Virus record (IMG/VR): IMGVR_UViG_3300048883_000844
Coordinates: 1-33,775 of that record
DNA length: 33,775 nt
DNA from: a virus
Strand: one strand, 5' to 3'
The notes beneath the pieces were generated by a model. It made no database searches. It had not been told where the DNA came from and saw only the letters and a program-made list of their open reading frames with translations. The translations under genes were made by a program, and so were the position numbers. Shown here piece by piece: positions 17,687 through 24,021 of the stretch (positions are counted from its first letter, which is position 1; each line of letters opens with the position of its first letter).

Positions 17687-18094
17687 TCAGGTGCTTCCAT
17701 TTTTCAAGCCTTTGATGATATTTTTTACATTATAAGCAAACCCTTTCACCCTGTGTGTGTTTTTAGGGGCTTGAAACAAGTTGTCTGTATCACTGTATTT
17801 ACTTGATTTAACAGTGTCCATCCAAATAGTGCAATCCGCATTAACTATATCTCTGCTTTCTTCTAAAGGACAAATAAAGTCCATAACCACATACTCTTTA
17901 CTTGATTGCAATGATAGTTCATTAATTCGTTTGGCTTGTCTTACCCTTCCTTCTTTACTGAAATCCCAATCATCTGTTTCTTTCCTTATTTCATCAGCAT
18001 TTAAGTAATCAGCATCTAATAAATTAATCAACTCACCTGACAAGGTTGTTTTACCTGAGCCTGATAACCCCATAACAAGTATTCTAAAACTCAT
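17687..18094 (-). CDS. cysC-like: APS-kinase-like P-loop kinase (135 aa)
   Basis: APS kinases phosphorylate adenylyl sulfate to PAPS, the sulfate donor of sulfotransferases. Motifs: P-loop GLSGSGKTT near the N-terminus, LNADEIRKE corresponding to CysC LDGD-x-x-R, DWDFSKEGRVRQAKRI matching the CysC F-S-x-x-x-R...RRI block, and DFICPLEESR matching the 'ISP' strand. The C-terminal part (TIWMDTVKSS, DTDNLFQAP) follows a small phage family often labelled adenylylsulfate kinase. It is shorter than CysC (about 200 aa). Start chosen at 18094 (MSFRILVMG); the longer frame to 18130 would run deeper into the upstream gene and add 12 residues of no family match. It overlaps the sulfotransferase by 11 nt. 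Last gene before the terminator. Kinase substrate is not proved; other small phosphoryl acceptors are possible. Confidence 0.78.
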   Translation of the reverse strand: MSFRILVMGLSGSGKTTLSGELINLLDADYLNADEIRKETDDWDFSKEGRVRQAKRINELSLQSSKEYVVMDFICPLEESRDIVNADCTIWMDTVKSSKYSDTDNLFQAPKNTHRVKGFAYNVKNIIKGLKNGST

Positions 18095-18731
18095 AACCAA
18101 ACTTCTCAAAAATAGAGTTATCTTTTGCATATACCATGTCTATCAGTTCATCTGAATAGTATTCTCTATAAGGGCTTCTTTCAGTTGTATTTTTATGAGG
18201 CGTTCCAAATATCATATTCTCTTGTTTAGCTGTTATATTACAATACTCTTTTAGTATGTCTATAAGGTCAGTTGTAAGACTCTCAAATCGCATAAAACGA
18301 ACGCCCTTAGTATCAAGCCCTGTCATCCTATGAGACAACCAAGAATAATAACCAATATTGTCAGGGTATTCTAAAAAATCTTTATTAGTTAGATTTGGTA
18401 GTGAGGTTTTTCTCCAATCATGTCTCATAAGACAGTGTTGTTTTTTACTTCCTTTAATTTGTAGCATTAAACGTAGAGCGCTATCAAAATCATCTACACC
18501 TGTCATCAAAGGATGATTTATATTTTTATAAAAATGAAATGCTGAAACATACCAATCAAAAGGATTTCTTATTGTGCTTACAAACTTAGTACGATTTCCT
18601 TTATACCTACTAAGGGGTAAGTGGGAGTCAACCACGCGACTTTCAGGAAAAACACTTTTCAATATAGCGTTCGTGAAAGTTCCACCTGTTCTTGATGTGT
18701 GTATGTAGGCAAAGTTCTTAGTTTCTAGCAT
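18084..18731 (-). CDS. Sulfotransferase family protein A (215 aa)
   Basis: Sulfotransferases move a sulfuryl group from PAPS to hydroxyl or amine groups. The 5'-phosphosulfate loop is HTSRTGGTFTN (11-21), and the 3'-phosphate site is VSTIRNPFDWYVSAF (51-65; R55, S63). The C-terminal end (SPYREYYSDELIDMVY, then IFEKFGYEF) is typical of the Sulfotransfer_2/5 type. It has no signal peptide, so it acts in the host cytoplasm. It overlaps both neighbours (14 and 11 nt) and sits directly upstream of the gene for a probable PAPS-forming kinase. Acceptor unknown: phage tail protein, host surface glycan precursor or small molecule are all possible. Confidence 0.85.
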   Translation of the reverse strand: MLETKNFAYIHTSRTGGTFTNAILKSVFPESRVVDSHLPLSRYKGNRTKFVSTIRNPFDWYVSAFHFYKNINHPLMTGVDDFDSALRLMLQIKGSKKQHCLMRHDWRKTSLPNLTNKDFLEYPDNIGYYSWLSHRMTGLDTKGVRFMRFESLTTDLIDILKEYCNITAKQENMIFGTPHKNTTERSPYREYYSDELIDMVYAKDNSIFEKFGYEF

Positions 18732-19461
18732 ATATTGGTATTAACTTAAACCTTGTAAACCCTAATGATTTTAGTTTTTCTAAATCAAAAAACACCATAC
18801 CAAGGTCTTCTCTTGGCTTTAACTGTTTACTGCACGTTACAGGTCTTACCTTTGCTACCGTATTGTTGTTAATCTTAGAAATAACAGAATAACATATTTT
18901 AGATGGACAGTTATAAGCGCATCCTGCATTGGCAAAAAGAATGACTCTATTTTTGTTTTTTATATCTTTTAGACTTTCATAATCTTCAGTTACCTCCATC
19001 GGCAACACAACAGAATCATAAATTTCTAGGTTTTTATCAATATCTGAAAACTTAATGTTTTTAATCACACTCGCTTCTATTTTGTACTTTGGGTAATCTT
19101 CCCTAATTCTGAAGGCAAGTTCATCATTAGTACAGATTATTGAATTTAATTTGTTGTGATGTTTCTCTAATAAGGGCTTAGTCTTTTCATAGTCTTCTTC
19201 CGTGAAAAATGAGTTAGTTAGGGGAATCCTAAATCCTATTCCGTTCTTGTATAGATACTTCAAGTCATCTTTTGTAACATTAGGCGAAGAAAAACCCCTC
19301 CCACCATACAAAGGCACATACGTTGAAAATCCATACACACTGTCTATTCGACCCTCTCCTACTACATTTTTAAACCTTACCAACCACCTATCCATAGAAC
19401 AAGAGTTAGGCTTGTTTCTAGCCGAAACAGTGAAACTTAAAACATTATCTAACTCTATCAT
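18718..19461 (-). CDS. U32-peptidase-like cysteine protein (247 aa), function unknown
   Basis: Has four C-terminal cysteines in the pattern NAGC-x3-CP-x4-C (C181, C185, C190) plus C210, resembling the N-x-G-C...CP motif of U32 family proteins, which in several cases assist Fe-S- or O2-independent hydroxylation pathways. The N-terminal region holds SCSMDRWLVRFKNVVGEG and a run of alternating strands and helices fitting a TIM-barrel-like fold (GFRIPLTNS, EASVIKNIKF, VVLPMEV). I recall similar unnamed proteins in cyanophages, but cannot verify it. It overlaps the oxygenase by 17 nt and the sulfotransferase by 14 nt, with weak Shine-Dalgarno, so it is translated by coupling. Confidence 0.65.
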   Translation of the reverse strand: MIELDNVLSFTVSARNKPNSCSMDRWLVRFKNVVGEGRIDSVYGFSTYVPLYGGRGFSSPNVTKDDLKYLYKNGIGFRIPLTNSFFTEEDYEKTKPLLEKHHNKLNSIICTNDELAFRIREDYPKYKIEASVIKNIKFSDIDKNLEIYDSVVLPMEVTEDYESLKDIKNKNRVILFANAGCAYNCPSKICYSVISKINNNTVAKVRPVTCSKQLKPREDLGMVFFDLEKLKSLGFTRFKLIPIYARN

Positions 19462-19972
19462 AATTTAGTTTACTACTCTTCTCAAAAGACCACCCCCAAT
19501 TAACGGTTATTCTCGGCTTACTCCCCACTACAGGAGTGCTACTATGACCAACCTTGTCAGGCTCATAAGCCACAATATCCCTTTCCTTTACATTAAGGAC
19601 TTTAGAATCATAAACGGGCATACCGCCTTTATCAGGAACGCTTAAAAAAAGATTAAATCTAAAATGGTTTCTGTCTTTAAAAGGGTCAACGTGTGGTTGC
19701 ACAAAGCCACCTTCGATATGACGACTTAGGAAACAAGGGTGGGCGCGTACTTCGTAATATTCAAAACCTTTCAAACCGTAGTCTTTTAAAATTCTTTCTC
19801 CTATTTCTGTAACTAGAGAATTACTCTTTAAGTTAAAAAGGGCATTAGAGCGCCTGAAGTCGCCCCAAACAGGATGAGGAGTAAGATTTGGCTCGCACTC
19901 ATAAAACCAAGACAGAAGTTTTTTATGCTCTTCTTCTGTAATAAATTCTCGGTTTATAATTTTCTTATCCAT
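19445..19972 (-). CDS. 2-oxoglutarate/Fe(II)-dependent oxygenase (175 aa)
   Basis: Double-stranded beta-helix dioxygenase of the prolyl-4-hydroxylase-like group. The metal triad is H94-x-D96 (VQPHVDPFKD) and H143 (VGHSSTP), with R154 (KPRITVNWGW) placed to bind 2-oxoglutarate. SVPDKGGMPVYDSKV forms the middle strands. The fold spans about 70-162. Such enzymes in phages often lie near tail-fibre genes and could hydroxylate a fibre residue or a small substrate. The start overlaps the upstream sulfotransferase by 8 nt (TTATGGATAA). A hydroxylated side chain would be a ready acceptor for sulfation, which is why its position between two sulfotransferases matters. Confidence 0.87.
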   Translation of the reverse strand: MDKKIINREFITEEEHKKLLSWFYECEPNLTPHPVWGDFRRSNALFNLKSNSLVTEIGERILKDYGLKGFEYYEVRAHPCFLSRHIEGGFVQPHVDPFKDRNHFRFNLFLSVPDKGGMPVYDSKVLNVKERDIVAYEPDKVGHSSTPVVGSKPRITVNWGWSFEKSSKLNYDRVR

Positions 19973-20654
19973 AACATTTGTATCCTAATGATTGTATGAG
20001 GTCGCTTCCTAACAACTCAGTAATTTTATTAATATTATTACTGCTTAGTTTTTTCGGTATTTCTTTTTTATTATAATTAAAATCGTTTTTATCAAAGTAT
20101 TTAGAATAGCGGACATTTCCATAGTGGAGTTTAAAATCCTTTACTACCTTATCCCCTCCTATTTTAGATATTATATTTCTACTTACTTCTTCTGCCTTTT
20201 TTTCATCTAAGAAATCTTCGTATCTGACTAATTGAATATCTGTGTTGCTGTCTGAATACTTCAGCCATTTGCTGTAAAAATCCTTGTATAACTTAATTAG
20301 ATTTTCTAAGTTATATCTTGAATTTCCTACATCGGGGTTTTTTTCTAATTCGTATTCTTCAAAGCCCCACCATAATGACTCTCTAACGTCAGAGTTCATT
20401 CTATCATTAAATAGTAAAGACTCTGCCCACAGATAAGGATTTCTAACCACCAACACAAAGTATGCTTGAGCAATTTTCGCTTTCTTTAAATAGTTAATGT
20501 GCTTAGGAAAGCAGTGTTTTGACATAGCGTTGCCATCCTCTAACAGATACCCTCTGAAACTAACATCAGATGGTGTGTTTTTATTTAGGACAATCTCCAA
20601 ATAATTAGAACCTGTCCTCTGTAAACTAATAAAGAATACATTTTTTTTAAACAA
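19965..20654 (-). CDS. Sulfotransferase family protein B (229 aa)
   Basis: The PAPS-binding loop ISLQRTGSNYLEIV (about 9-22) and the 3'-phosphate segment FVLVVRNPYLWAESLLF (R, S) identify a sulfotransferase, and DIQLVRYEDFL is the typical later strand. The frame is open back to ATG 20720, but that would overlap the upstream gene by 74 nt. I favour TTG 20654, with GTGAGG about 6 nt upstream, which places the PSB loop at residue 10 as usual for the family. It is only distantly similar to sulfotransferase A, so the two probably have different acceptors. It is the first gene of the five-gene cassette. Confidence 0.8.
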   Translation of the reverse strand: MFKKNVFFISLQRTGSNYLEIVLNKNTPSDVSFRGYLLEDGNAMSKHCFPKHINYLKKAKIAQAYFVLVVRNPYLWAESLLFNDRMNSDVRESLWWGFEEYELEKNPDVGNSRYNLENLIKLYKDFYSKWLKYSDSNTDIQLVRYEDFLDEKKAEEVSRNIISKIGGDKVVKDFKLHYGNVRYSKYFDKNDFNYNKKEIPKKLSSNNINKITELLGSDLIQSLGYKCYG

Positions 20655-21096
20655 ACGTATCCTCACCCCAATCCAATGTAATTTCACCAGACTCAAGTAA
20701 AGTCTCATAGTCTGAAGCAATCGGTGCTGTTATGTCACTTCCATTATTTGGGGTGTTCTCGTACTCTTCTATTGCCAACCTAAATTCTTCAGACTGAAGC
20801 GGTGTTACAAATTTTACTTTGGCTTTAACTATAGAAGTGCCTTTGGCTCCTTGTTTAACTTGCATTACAGTATTTGAGTAGTCTATTACTCCATCTGCAT
20901 CTGCATCTTCCTCGACAGATTTATAATGTAAAAATTCGCCTGATGGCGCACCACCGCCATGATTAATAGAAGGTCCTGATAATAATTCAATAGTATGTGT
21001 AGCAATCCCCGTCGCTCCTTGAGCGTCGAATAATACTTCTAATTTGTCTTCTGCGGAAAATGAACTTCCACTAATTCTTCTTGCTGTTATATTCAT
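20647..21096 (-). CDS. Hypothetical tail-associated protein (149 aa)
   Basis: ATG at 21096 is preceded by AAGGAAAA. The sequence is acidic and beta-rich, with a hexagonal GPSINHGGGAPSGEF turn, DADADGVIDYSNTVMQV resembling a calcium-binding loop (D-x-D-x-D-G), and an acidic C-terminus (EITLDWGEDTFV). Located between the polyglycine adhesin and the sulfation cassette, it might be an adhesin assembly factor or small tail ornament, but no family is recognised. Its 3' end overlaps the sulfotransferase start region by 8 nt. Confidence 0.68.
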   Translation of the reverse strand: MNITARRISGSSFSAEDKLEVLFDAQGATGIATHTIELLSGPSINHGGGAPSGEFLHYKSVEEDADADGVIDYSNTVMQVKQGAKGTSIVKAKVKFVTPLQSEEFRLAIEEYENTPNNGSDITAPIASDYETLLESGEITLDWGEDTFV

Positions 21097-21108: not shown

Positions 21109-22128
21109 TTAACTAATTTGTCCTGTGTTTCCTGATAGTGCCAAACCTGCTGTGCCACCTGCTGAACCGTTAGAGCCACCTGAGCCACCTACACCACTTG
21201 GATAAGCACTCTGATGTCCCCAATAACTACAGTATCTCGTGCCATACTCACCTGAAGAGCCTGCTGAGGTGTTCCCACCACCGTTTCCACCTGCACCACC
21301 ATACTCAAGATATTGTCCAGCAACACGTGCGCCGCCTGAGCCACCTGCGCTAGCCGACCCGTTAGAGCCTGAACCTGAGCCTAAACCTGAGCCTGCTCCG
21401 CCACCGCCACCTGCACCACTAATATAAGTGTTCCCTTGGTATTCACAACGATATCCACGACCACCGCCACCACCGCCACCGCCACCGCCATATATGGTTT
21501 TAGTTCCTGCCGAGCCACCTGTGCGTGTACCTGCTGTGTCAAAGACTACTGATAAATAAGTATCACCTGTCTGTGAGTGTTCAAAAGCATTTCCACCATT
21601 ATTTGCTGAGTCTGCTGAACCTGACCCTGCCGAGCCACTACCCCCACTTGGGGCTTGGCTATTTGATGAGCCCCCTGCTCCTCCATTACCACCATTAGTA
21701 ACATACCCTGAAGTATTAGTTCCTGATACCCCCACAATAGTTCCATTATTAGTAATATTGATAGTTGTACCTGATGACCAACCTGTGTCTGTTTTCATAG
21801 CAGCAGTACCACTAGAAGTAGAGCTTACAGTAACACCTGCGTTAATGGTAAGAATAACAGGGGTTGATTTATCACCACCTGCTGCAATAGCTGCAGCGCC
21901 AATATTGTAATTATTAGTATTTGTAGAGATAGTTAATACTGTTGCTGCTACTGAATCATAGAAACTGTTGAAATTAATTTGACCTGATGTAGCGATGCCT
22001 GGGTTCGCACCTGCAGGTACTTTGTCACCACCACCATAAAATTCACTCAATGCGTGGGGTGCTGAATCGGCAAACTCACCTACAATATCTGTAGCAAAAG
22101 AGAGTGCGCCTGTGCTTTTAACTGCCAT
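21109..22128 (-). CDS. Polyglycine tail adhesin, gp38-like (339 aa)
   Basis: The likely distal receptor-binding protein. Residues 1-60 (MAVKSTGALSFATDIVGEF, then a GGGDKVPAG loop) resemble an N-terminal attachment domain common in marine phage fibre proteins. Residues 60-140 are beta-helix-like Thr/Asn/Ile repeats. From about 145 on the chain is very rich in Gly/Ser/Ala, including a run of ten glycines (about residues 213-222) and SGAGGGGGAGSGLGSGSG. T-even gp38 adhesins fold such sequence into stacked polyglycine-II helices with variable loops between. Five loops here carry aromatic residues (YRCEYQGNTY, EYGTRYCSYWGHQSAYPS) and could contact receptor. AGGAG precedes the start. Confidence 0.75.
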   Translation of the reverse strand: MAVKSTGALSFATDIVGEFADSAPHALSEFYGGGDKVPAGANPGIATSGQINFNSFYDSVAATVLTISTNTNNYNIGAAAIAAGGDKSTPVILTINAGVTVSSTSSGTAAMKTDTGWSSGTTINITNNGTIVGVSGTNTSGYVTNGGNGGAGGSSNSQAPSGGSGSAGSGSADSANNGGNAFEHSQTGDTYLSVVFDTAGTRTGGSAGTKTIYGGGGGGGGGGRGYRCEYQGNTYISGAGGGGGAGSGLGSGSGSNGSASAGGSGGARVAGQYLEYGGAGGNGGGNTSAGSSGEYGTRYCSYWGHQSAYPSGVGGSGGSNGSAGGTAGLALSGNTGQIS

Positions 22129-22131
22129 ATA

Positions 22132-24021
22132 CTACTCCTCTAATTTTTCAATTTTACTCGAAAGTTCCTTAATCGCTTCTACTAATAGACCGATTGTTTG
22201 ATCATACTGTAATACTTTATACTTCTCTCCATCGTCTTTCTTCAGTGGTAGTTCCTTCTCGCTTACTGCTGACGGTAATACCTTTTCAACATCTTGTGCG
22301 ATTAAACCTGCTGATTCTTTGCCATCTTCTGTGTAAGTAAACGTACAACCTTTAAGTTGGTTAACTTTTGCTAAAGCATTGGTGATAGGCATAATACCTG
22401 TTTTTAAACGCTCATCTGAAATAGTAGTTGAGTAGGCGATAATATCACCATCTGCGTGTAAGTCACCATCAGCTTCAATTCTAACACGTTCAGCAGCATT
22501 AACGAAGAATGATTGATAAAGATTATTAGTCCAACCAATATAGTCACCTGCATCTAGCCCAATATGGGTAATTGAATCCCTTAAATCAGGTTCAACTGAG
22601 AATGTCGTACCTGATATATCAAGACCAGCACCTGCTGAGTAAGTAGTGTTATCATTTGGAGCAGTTACAGTATCTGTAGTACCGTCTCCTCTATTTAAAG
22701 TAATAACACTACCTGAAATAGTCATGGCATTTGCTGAAGTTGCTAGTGCTTGTGCGGAACTTGTAGCCACTTTAGTGCCTAATGCAGTTGTTATTGTTGC
22801 GGCATAAGAAGCATCGTCCCCAATAGCTTCTGCTAATTCATTAAGAGTATCTAATGCACCAGGTGCACCACCTATTAAGTTAGTAACTGCTGTAGTAACA
22901 TATGCTGTAGAAGCAACCTGAGTACTATTAGTTGCAGAGGATGCTGTAGGTACTGTAGGAATACCTGTTATTGTAGGACTAGTTAAACTCTTATTAGTAA
23001 GAGTATCAGTTGTTGCTAATCCAACGAAAGTATCTGAAGCATTTGGAATAGTCCAAGTCCTATCTGCTGTTGGGTCTGTAATTGCTATTGTAGTTTCAAA
23101 CCCATTAGCAGTAAGTCCTTCAAATACTAAAGGGCTTGCACCTGATAGTACACCTCCAGTTAAATCTACAACACCAGTTACAGTAGCTGCATTTATTGTA
23201 GGACTCGTTAATGTCTTATTAGTCATTGTTTGAGTTCCTGTAAGAGTTCCTACAGTAGAATCAATATTAAGAGTAACTGTATTTAAAGAACCTACAGAGG
23301 CTAGCCCGGTACCTCCTGCAATAGTTAAAGATTCTGAATCTAAATCTATAGCTAGAGCACCTCCAGAATCAGCAATAAAATCCAAATCTTGTGCAGTTAC
23401 TTGAGCATCTACATAAGCCTTAATAGACTGTTGAGATGCAAGCTTTGTAGCAGAATTAGAGGACATAGTGTCTTCGTCTAGAAAAGCAGTACCTGATACT
23501 CCTGTATTTAGTACAGGACTCGTTAATGTCTTATTAGTCATTGTTTGAGTTCCTGTAAGAGTTCCTACAGTAGAATCAATATTAAGAGTAACTGTATTTA
23601 AAGAACCTACAGAGGCTAGCCCGGTACCTCCTGCAATAGTTAAAGATTCTGAATCTAAATCTATAGCTAGAGCACCTCCAGAATCAGCAATAAAATCCAA
23701 ATCTTGTGCAGTTACTTGAGCATCTACATAAGCCTTAATAGACTGTTGAGATGCAAGCTTTGTAGCAGAATTAGAGGACATAGTGTCTTCGTCTAGAAAA
23801 GCAGTACCTGATACTCCTGTATTTAGTACAGGACTCGTTAATGTCTTATTAGTCATTGTTTGAGTCGCAGTAGTACTTACATGCGGAAAGCCTGCTGCGG
23901 TTGCACCATCATGTACAATTAAAATATCCTTATCTGTATCGACGGTAACTTCACCTGCAGCTCCTGTAAACGATGCGTGACCTACTGTTGTACCTCGTCT
24001 GTGTTGTATTTGTGTTGCCAT
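22132..24021 (-). CDS. Tail fibre with C-terminal S74 intramolecular chaperone (629 aa)
   Basis: The N-terminal domain (IQHRRGTTVGHAS, GAAGEVTVDTDKDILIVHDG) is like the major-tropism-determinant N-terminal anchor. The shaft carries a repeat of 105 residues starting TMTNKTLTSPVLNTGVSG present twice with identical DNA, plus a partial third copy. The C-terminal 110 residues are a peptidase S74 chaperone (SDERLKTGIMPITNALAKVN, SAGLIAQDVEKVLP, then a coiled coil ending KIEKLEE). S74 domains promote trimerisation and cut themselves off at the conserved Ser of the T-x-S-D-E-R motif. RBS AGGAG is 9 nt upstream. Confidence 0.87.
   Translation of the reverse strand: MATQIQHRRGTTVGHASFTGAAGEVTVDTDKDILIVHDGATAAGFPHVSTTATQTMTNKTLTSPVLNTGVSGTAFLDEDTMSSNSATKLASQQSIKAYVDAQVTAQDLDFIADSGGALAIDLDSESLTIAGGTGLASVGSLNTVTLNIDSTVGTLTGTQTMTNKTLTSPVLNTGVSGTAFLDEDTMSSNSATKLASQQSIKAYVDAQVTAQDLDFIADSGGALAIDLDSESLTIAGGTGLASVGSLNTVTLNIDSTVGTLTGTQTMTNKTLTSPTINAATVTGVVDLTGGVLSGASPLVFEGLTANGFETTIAITDPTADRTWTIPNASDTFVGLATTDTLTNKSLTSPTITGIPTVPTASSATNSTQVASTAYVTTAVTNLIGGAPGALDTLNELAEAIGDDASYAATITTALGTKVATSSAQALATSANAMTISGSVITLNRGDGTTDTVTAPNDNTTYSAGAGLDISGTTFSVEPDLRDSITHIGLDAGDYIGWTNNLYQSFFVNAAERVRIEADGDLHADGDIIAYSTTISDERLKTGIMPITNALAKVNQLKGCTFTYTEDGKESAGLIAQDVEKVLPSAVSEKELPLKKDDGEKYKVLQYDQTIGLLVEAIKELSSKIEKLEE
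23201..23865. repeat. Perfect 315-bp tandem duplication plus 35-bp remnant
   Basis: Copies 23201-23515 and 23516-23830 appear identical by eye, and 23831-23865 repeats the first 35 bp of the unit. The period is exactly 105 codons, so the fibre frame is kept. Perfect identity suggests a recent duplication or very active homogenisation. Confidence 0.9.

Follow-up and report, generated by a model that had tools for sequence, protein, structure and literature searches.

Arrangement of the cassette behind the adhesin genes

Why would a phage carry sulfotransferases, an oxygenase and a kinase directly behind the genes for its tail adhesins? We considered this question for a virus record of 33,775 bases, analysed as a whole and referred to here as the window, which belongs to a marine-type phage. 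Its SbcC-like protein is nearest to those of Vibrio phages of 112-121 kb, with about 36% identity. The cassette occupies positions 17687-20720 of the minus strand. The initial annotation described it as five overlapping minus-strand genes placed immediately after the adhesin genes, and both statements are borne out. All five open reading frames lie on the minus strand, overlap one another by 8-47 nt, and run in the order ST2, oxygenase, cysteine protein, ST1, kinase. They are preceded by a tail-fibre gene, a Gly-rich 339-aa gene and a 149-aa gene, with junctions that consist of a 12-nt gap or an overlap (Table 1).

Table 1. Positions of the cassette genes and of the genes leading into them
Feature	Position	Strand	Evidence
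APS-kinase-like P-loop kinase without the usual lid	17687..18130	-	APS_kinase 2.6e-8; AF2 model; conserved residues
Sulfotransferase ST1	18084..18731	-	Sulfotransfer_1 3.4e-6; both PAPS-binding motifs; viral-contig relatives
Four-cysteine protein, no family assigned (earlier label 'U32-like')	18718..19461	-	Four invariant Cys; viral relatives
2OG-Fe(II) oxygenase	19445..19972	-	PF13640 0.0013; phrog_13746 1.9e-12; HxD...H...R
Sulfotransferase-like ST2	19965..20720, likely start at or near 20654	-	Sulfotransfer_3 0.031; both PAPS-binding motifs
149-aa protein between adhesin and cassette	20647..21096	-	Open reading frame alone
Gly-rich (26% Gly) 339-aa tail adhesin candidate	21109..22128	-	phrog_10745 3.9e-23 (function unknown); position behind tail fibres
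Tail fibre with Mtd_N and S74 chaperone domains	22132..24021	-	Mtd_N 1.6e-14; Peptidase_S74 1.1e-16; tail fibre PHROGs

For the kinase, the ATG at 18094 is the probable start codon. The ST2 start listed in Table 1 is a TTG that lies in frame and is preceded by a plausible ribosome-binding site. Profile searches of Pfam and PHROG assigned the 149-aa protein to no family. The layout suggests that the cassette is co-expressed with the adhesin genes, and its expression is probably late because the genes continue from the adhesin genes without a break. The Gly-rich 339-aa protein is a possible target of modification.

Two sulfotransferases and an oxygenase

The two distinct sulfotransferases and the 2OG-Fe(II) oxygenase that had been claimed for this locus are supported by our searches. 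ST1 scores over the Pfam cut-off with Sulfotransfer_1 (3.4e-6), retains an intact 5'-phosphosulfate loop (HTSRTGGTF) and 3'-phosphate motif (IRNPFDWYVS), and has relatives in viral contigs. Both motifs are also intact in ST2 (SLQRTGSNY and VRNPYLWAES), which scores 0.031 with Sulfotransfer_3, under the Pfam cut-off. On iteration ST2 joins the ST1 profile family at 1e-34, a figure that is inflated because ST2 was by then part of the ST1 profile. The two proteins share the 5'- and 3'-phosphosulfate motifs with the sulfotransferase family (PF00685 / PF13469 / PF03567), although the forms in the window are short and divergent. By motif, both are predicted to be PAPS-dependent enzymes that transfer sulfate.

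The oxygenase has its facial triad and 2OG-binding Arg in the expected places (HVD...H...R). Its match to phrog_13746 is clear (1.9e-12), its match to PF13640 (0.0013) lies under the Pfam cut-off, and it falls into a group of other phage oxygenases. Single-sequence scans of viral contigs with ST2, the oxygenase or the cysteine protein returned no relatives.

The four-cysteine protein

The gene between the oxygenase and ST1 had been labelled U32-like. We dropped this identity, since profile searches with PF01136 (U32) gave no match in six family members searched at E<=5 or in the whole window record, in a search that yielded matches in 8 control genomes. The protein had no family match in Pfam or PHROG and no match in a PDB sequence search. 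Its structure model is poor (pLDDT 49.6), with weak barrel-like matches, none of them at E<=0.001. A search for cellular relatives through its conserved peptides found none; relatives in viral contigs stand at 37-41%. Four cysteines, C181, C185, C190 and C210, are invariant in the aligned members and suggest a possible Fe-S site.

In three phages (the window, L008 and L096) the gene immediately precedes ST1 and has oxygenases nearby; in L008, L096 and L098 a Gly-rich adhesin and a small 'MAHFA' protein are found near it. At L099 (3886-4425) and L100 (3758-4261), the cysteine protein stands beside replication/recombination genes, not adhesins.

The kinase resembles APS kinases in fold and in half of its active site

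The last gene had been described as encoding an APS-kinase-like enzyme, and structure comparison had been proposed as the check on APS binding. Judged by its sequence and predicted model, the kinase is APS-kinase-like in its fold and in half of its active site. The Pfam APS_kinase match (2.6e-8) is over the Pfam cut-off, and APS kinases rank first among full-length matches in a profile search. Its AlphaFold2 model is confident (pLDDT 93.2); the best Foldseek match is 5cb8 (TMq 0.71-0.74), and among PDB entries the model comes closest to APS-bound APS kinases and to gluconate kinases.

In Mtb CysC, the phosphosulfate of APS is held by Arg483 and Arg497, its adenine stacks against Phe492, Asp480 touches the ribose, and a lid formed by residues 552-581 contributes Arg559, Lys562 and Phe576 (PMC4373884). 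D46, R49, F57 and R62 of the kinase align with Asp480, Arg483, Phe492 and Arg497, respectively, and are invariant in 33 members. Compared with APS kinases (CysC, or the APSK domain of PAPS synthase; PF01583), the family has thus kept the fold, the P-loop, both phosphosulfate-binding Arg residues, the adenine-stacking Phe and the second Asp of the LDGD motif. However, Asn replaces the first Asp of that motif throughout the 33 aligned members (NAD for DGD), and the lid, about 30 residues in APS kinase, is almost absent: the stretch is short in all members, and the profile alignments stop before it. The family is also smaller, at about 135-147 aa against 170-210 for APS kinases, and with TIGR00455, the curated APS kinase model, the kinase scores 32.1 bits, far under the cut-off of 138.7. 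For APS binding, the observations point both ways. The fold and the phosphosulfate-binding residues match those of APS kinases, whereas the missing lid, the invariantly changed motif residues and the pairing of many relatives with a NadM-like nucleotidylyltransferase (see below) speak against it.

Cytidine diphosphoramidate kinase is a CysC-like enzyme that functions in capsule phosphoramidate synthesis, and a substrate of that class is possible for the kinase.

Kinase neighbourhoods in viruses

We confirmed at least 445 relatives of the kinase in viral contigs and obtained neighbourhoods from the best 80 of them. Before removal of near-duplicates, 25 loci had the kinase fused to a nucleotidylyltransferase and 21 had it paired with a separate one; others had none. 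Because these loci share ancestry and are not phylogenetically independent, the following p-values are a rough guide only: by profile labels alone, sulfotransferase or oxygenase genes lay within three genes of the kinase at 14 of 29 loci without a nucleotidylyltransferase versus 5 of 41 with one (Fisher p=0.001), and around kinases without one their density was 17% within three genes versus 8% further out (p=0.007); Gly-rich genes occurred within seven genes at 8/29 versus 2/41 loci (p=0.013). In the kinase tree, the window kinase falls, with moderate support, into a clade that has such enzymes as neighbours in 13 of 18 rows. Some neighbour labels in this tree were assigned by visual inspection, and only at loci lacking a nucleotidylyltransferase, which biases the tree's own p-value; the sulfotransferase and oxygenase statistics above are free of such labels.

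Locus L016 has a sulfotransferase, an oxygenase and the kinase in the same order as the window, and its oxygenase is 32% identical to that of the window. The initial annotation had made its hypothesis depend on co-occurrence of the genes in other phages, and this was found: clusters of kinase, sulfotransferase and oxygenase, and of cysteine protein, ST1 and oxygenase, recur in unrelated phages, often near Gly-rich adhesins. The association of the kinase with sulfotransferase and oxygenase genes is well supported. Recurrence of similar enzyme runs in unrelated phages suggests that such phages may chemically modify the host surface or the proteins with which they attach.

Several oxygenases can be co-located in one pelagiphage (PMC9599517). 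L002 and L096 look like these 2OG-Fe(II) oxygenase clusters of pelagiphages and cyanophages; in the window, by contrast, the oxygenase is joined with sulfotransferases and a kinase beside Gly-rich adhesins. In L002 (2194-8506), a kinase and a sulfotransferase are surrounded by a row of nine oxygenase-like genes, and the whole array is flanked by a Gly-rich adhesin and a tail gene.

The nucleotidylyltransferase partner and the SAR11 relatives

By sequence search, the partner found in the fusions and pairs resembles NMN adenylyltransferases and is NadM-like. Its GRD- and ISxTxIR-like motifs had suggested ATP sulfurylase, an identity that we rejected since the search favours NMN adenylyltransferases. 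In PAPS synthase an APS kinase is fused to ATP sulfurylase, and relatives of the kinase are likewise fused, kinase first, to a nucleotidylyltransferase; the partner is, however, of the NMN-adenylyltransferase type, and the window has none.

In cellular genome contigs, at least 539 relatives of the kinase were confirmed. The best 80 of these are nearly all from Pelagibacteraceae, and at 67 of the 80 loci a nucleotidylyltransferase is nearby, mostly next door. Most cellular loci with the kinase and the NadM-like gene have neighbourhoods without a sulfotransferase; at L103 and L107 of SAR11, a Sulfotransfer_1 protein (3e-26 and 3e-22) adjoins the kinase gene. Across L101-L180 (SAR11), the pair is conserved near Rieske-type, M24-peptidase-type and one-carbon-type genes.

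These loci bear on whether the kinase acts on APS at all. Working with NadM-like partners, it could phosphorylate a nucleotide-like substrate other than APS, in which case its sulfotransferase neighbours would be cargo in a hot-spot behind the adhesins and would use host PAPS. The fusions and pairs, the missing lid with the changed motif residues, and the scarcity of sulfotransferases around the SAR11 kinases all agree with this. Against it, sulfotransferase and oxygenase neighbours are enriched and clade-linked in viruses, and a NadD-type enzyme is already over the cut-off in 10 of the 14 SAR11 genomes tested. Moreover, the kinase is present in 22 of 60 Pelagibacteraceae genomes, and a clear Sulfotransfer_3 protein is commoner in its carriers (12/22) than in non-carriers (4/38; p=0.0005, with neither phylogeny nor genome size corrected for). 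On balance, we regard a different substrate as unlikely.

SAR11 has been reported to lack assimilatory sulfate reduction and yet to have genes listed as cysC and cysQ (PMC5069961), with cysC mostly present without cysD (Table 3 of the same paper). CysD was found in none of our 22 SAR11 kinase carriers. Judged by distribution, the listed cysC may be this kinase family, which would put the label of SAR11 'cysC' in question.

Viral 'cysC' is usually filed under assimilatory sulfate reduction, a placement given as 'not validated' (PMC12713726), and on that basis the cassette would be an auxiliary gene set for this pathway. However, the commonest neighbour clusters hold no recognisable reductive sulfur genes (among models that did not include cysH), the neighbours of the kinase are sulfotransferases, oxygenases and nucleotidylyltransferases, and SAR11 carriers are without CysD. 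With the supporting genes not seen, we set this role aside as very improbable.

A possible modification cassette of the tail operon

Phages are already known to carry sulfotransferases, oxygenases and cysC-like genes singly. The function of phage sulfotransferases has been called unclear (PMC10580990). In a literature search, we found no description of a joint cassette behind adhesins, nor of a lid-less kinase paired with such a cassette. Our preferred reading, which we hold tentatively and at somewhat less than an even chance, is that the window has a modification cassette in its tail operon which, fed by the kinase, sulfates and hydroxylates a component of the virion or of the cell surface. 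The oxygenase, perhaps also the cysteine protein, would make some of the hydroxyl acceptors; ST1 and ST2 would then sulfonate hydroxyl groups, using a 3'-phosphonucleotide donor that the kinase would supply, most likely PAPS from host APS. Expressed late, the cassette would have the virion adhesin or tail as its likeliest target, which we infer from gene order. We count against this proposal the missing lid, the invariant Asn in LDGD and the cellular relatives, most of them NadM-paired without a sulfotransferase, as well as the presence of the cysteine protein at L099 and L100, replication regions that lack adhesins.

The substrate could instead be a host surface polysaccharide or lipid, not the virion, with the effect of altering adsorption or blocking superinfection. 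Sulfotransferases accept many substrates, sugar-nucleotide-type genes are among the neighbours of the sulfotransferase and kinase in SAR11 L107, and glycosyltransferases adjoin some kinase-sulfotransferase loci (L024). Changes to the host surface against superinfection usually come early in infection, however, whereas these genes sit in a late tail-fibre run, and we think such a target improbable. With either target, covalent decoration of virions or host surfaces becomes an alternative role, open to test, for phage sulfotransferases and viral 'cysC'.

A broader idea is that the lid-less kinase, with or without its NadM-like partner, provides a compact pathway to PAPS or a PAPS-like donor that has so far gone unrecognised. 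This pathway would serve CysD-lacking SAR11 as well as marine phages, and the phages would combine the kinase with sulfotransferases and oxygenases for sulfated, hydroxylated adhesins. We consider this speculative and decidedly unlikely.

Variation among kinase and sulfotransferase loci

L029 (352-1349 and 5229-8499) is a close relative that shares 87-92% identity with the window in five core genes but has no cassette at the corresponding site. A kinase of its own and an adjoining sulfotransferase-like gene are found elsewhere, upstream of recombination genes, a layout that looks as though the module had been relocated or gained a second time. The sulfotransferase-like gene was flagged by a motif regular expression, which is insensitive (it recovers 8 of 42 known) and served only for this purpose; its Pfam match is sub-threshold (0.039).

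One viral contig, L010 (1151-8624), holds four ST1-like genes together with radical-SAM-like genes. A DUF2061 membrane domain adjoins or is fused to the kinase in L020, L038, L068, L074, L076, L085, L088 and L095. In L003 and L005, from Xanthomonas and Stenotrophomonas phages, the kinase-nucleotidylyltransferase fusion is next to a small upstream gene, which in L005 carries a NADAR-domain annotation.
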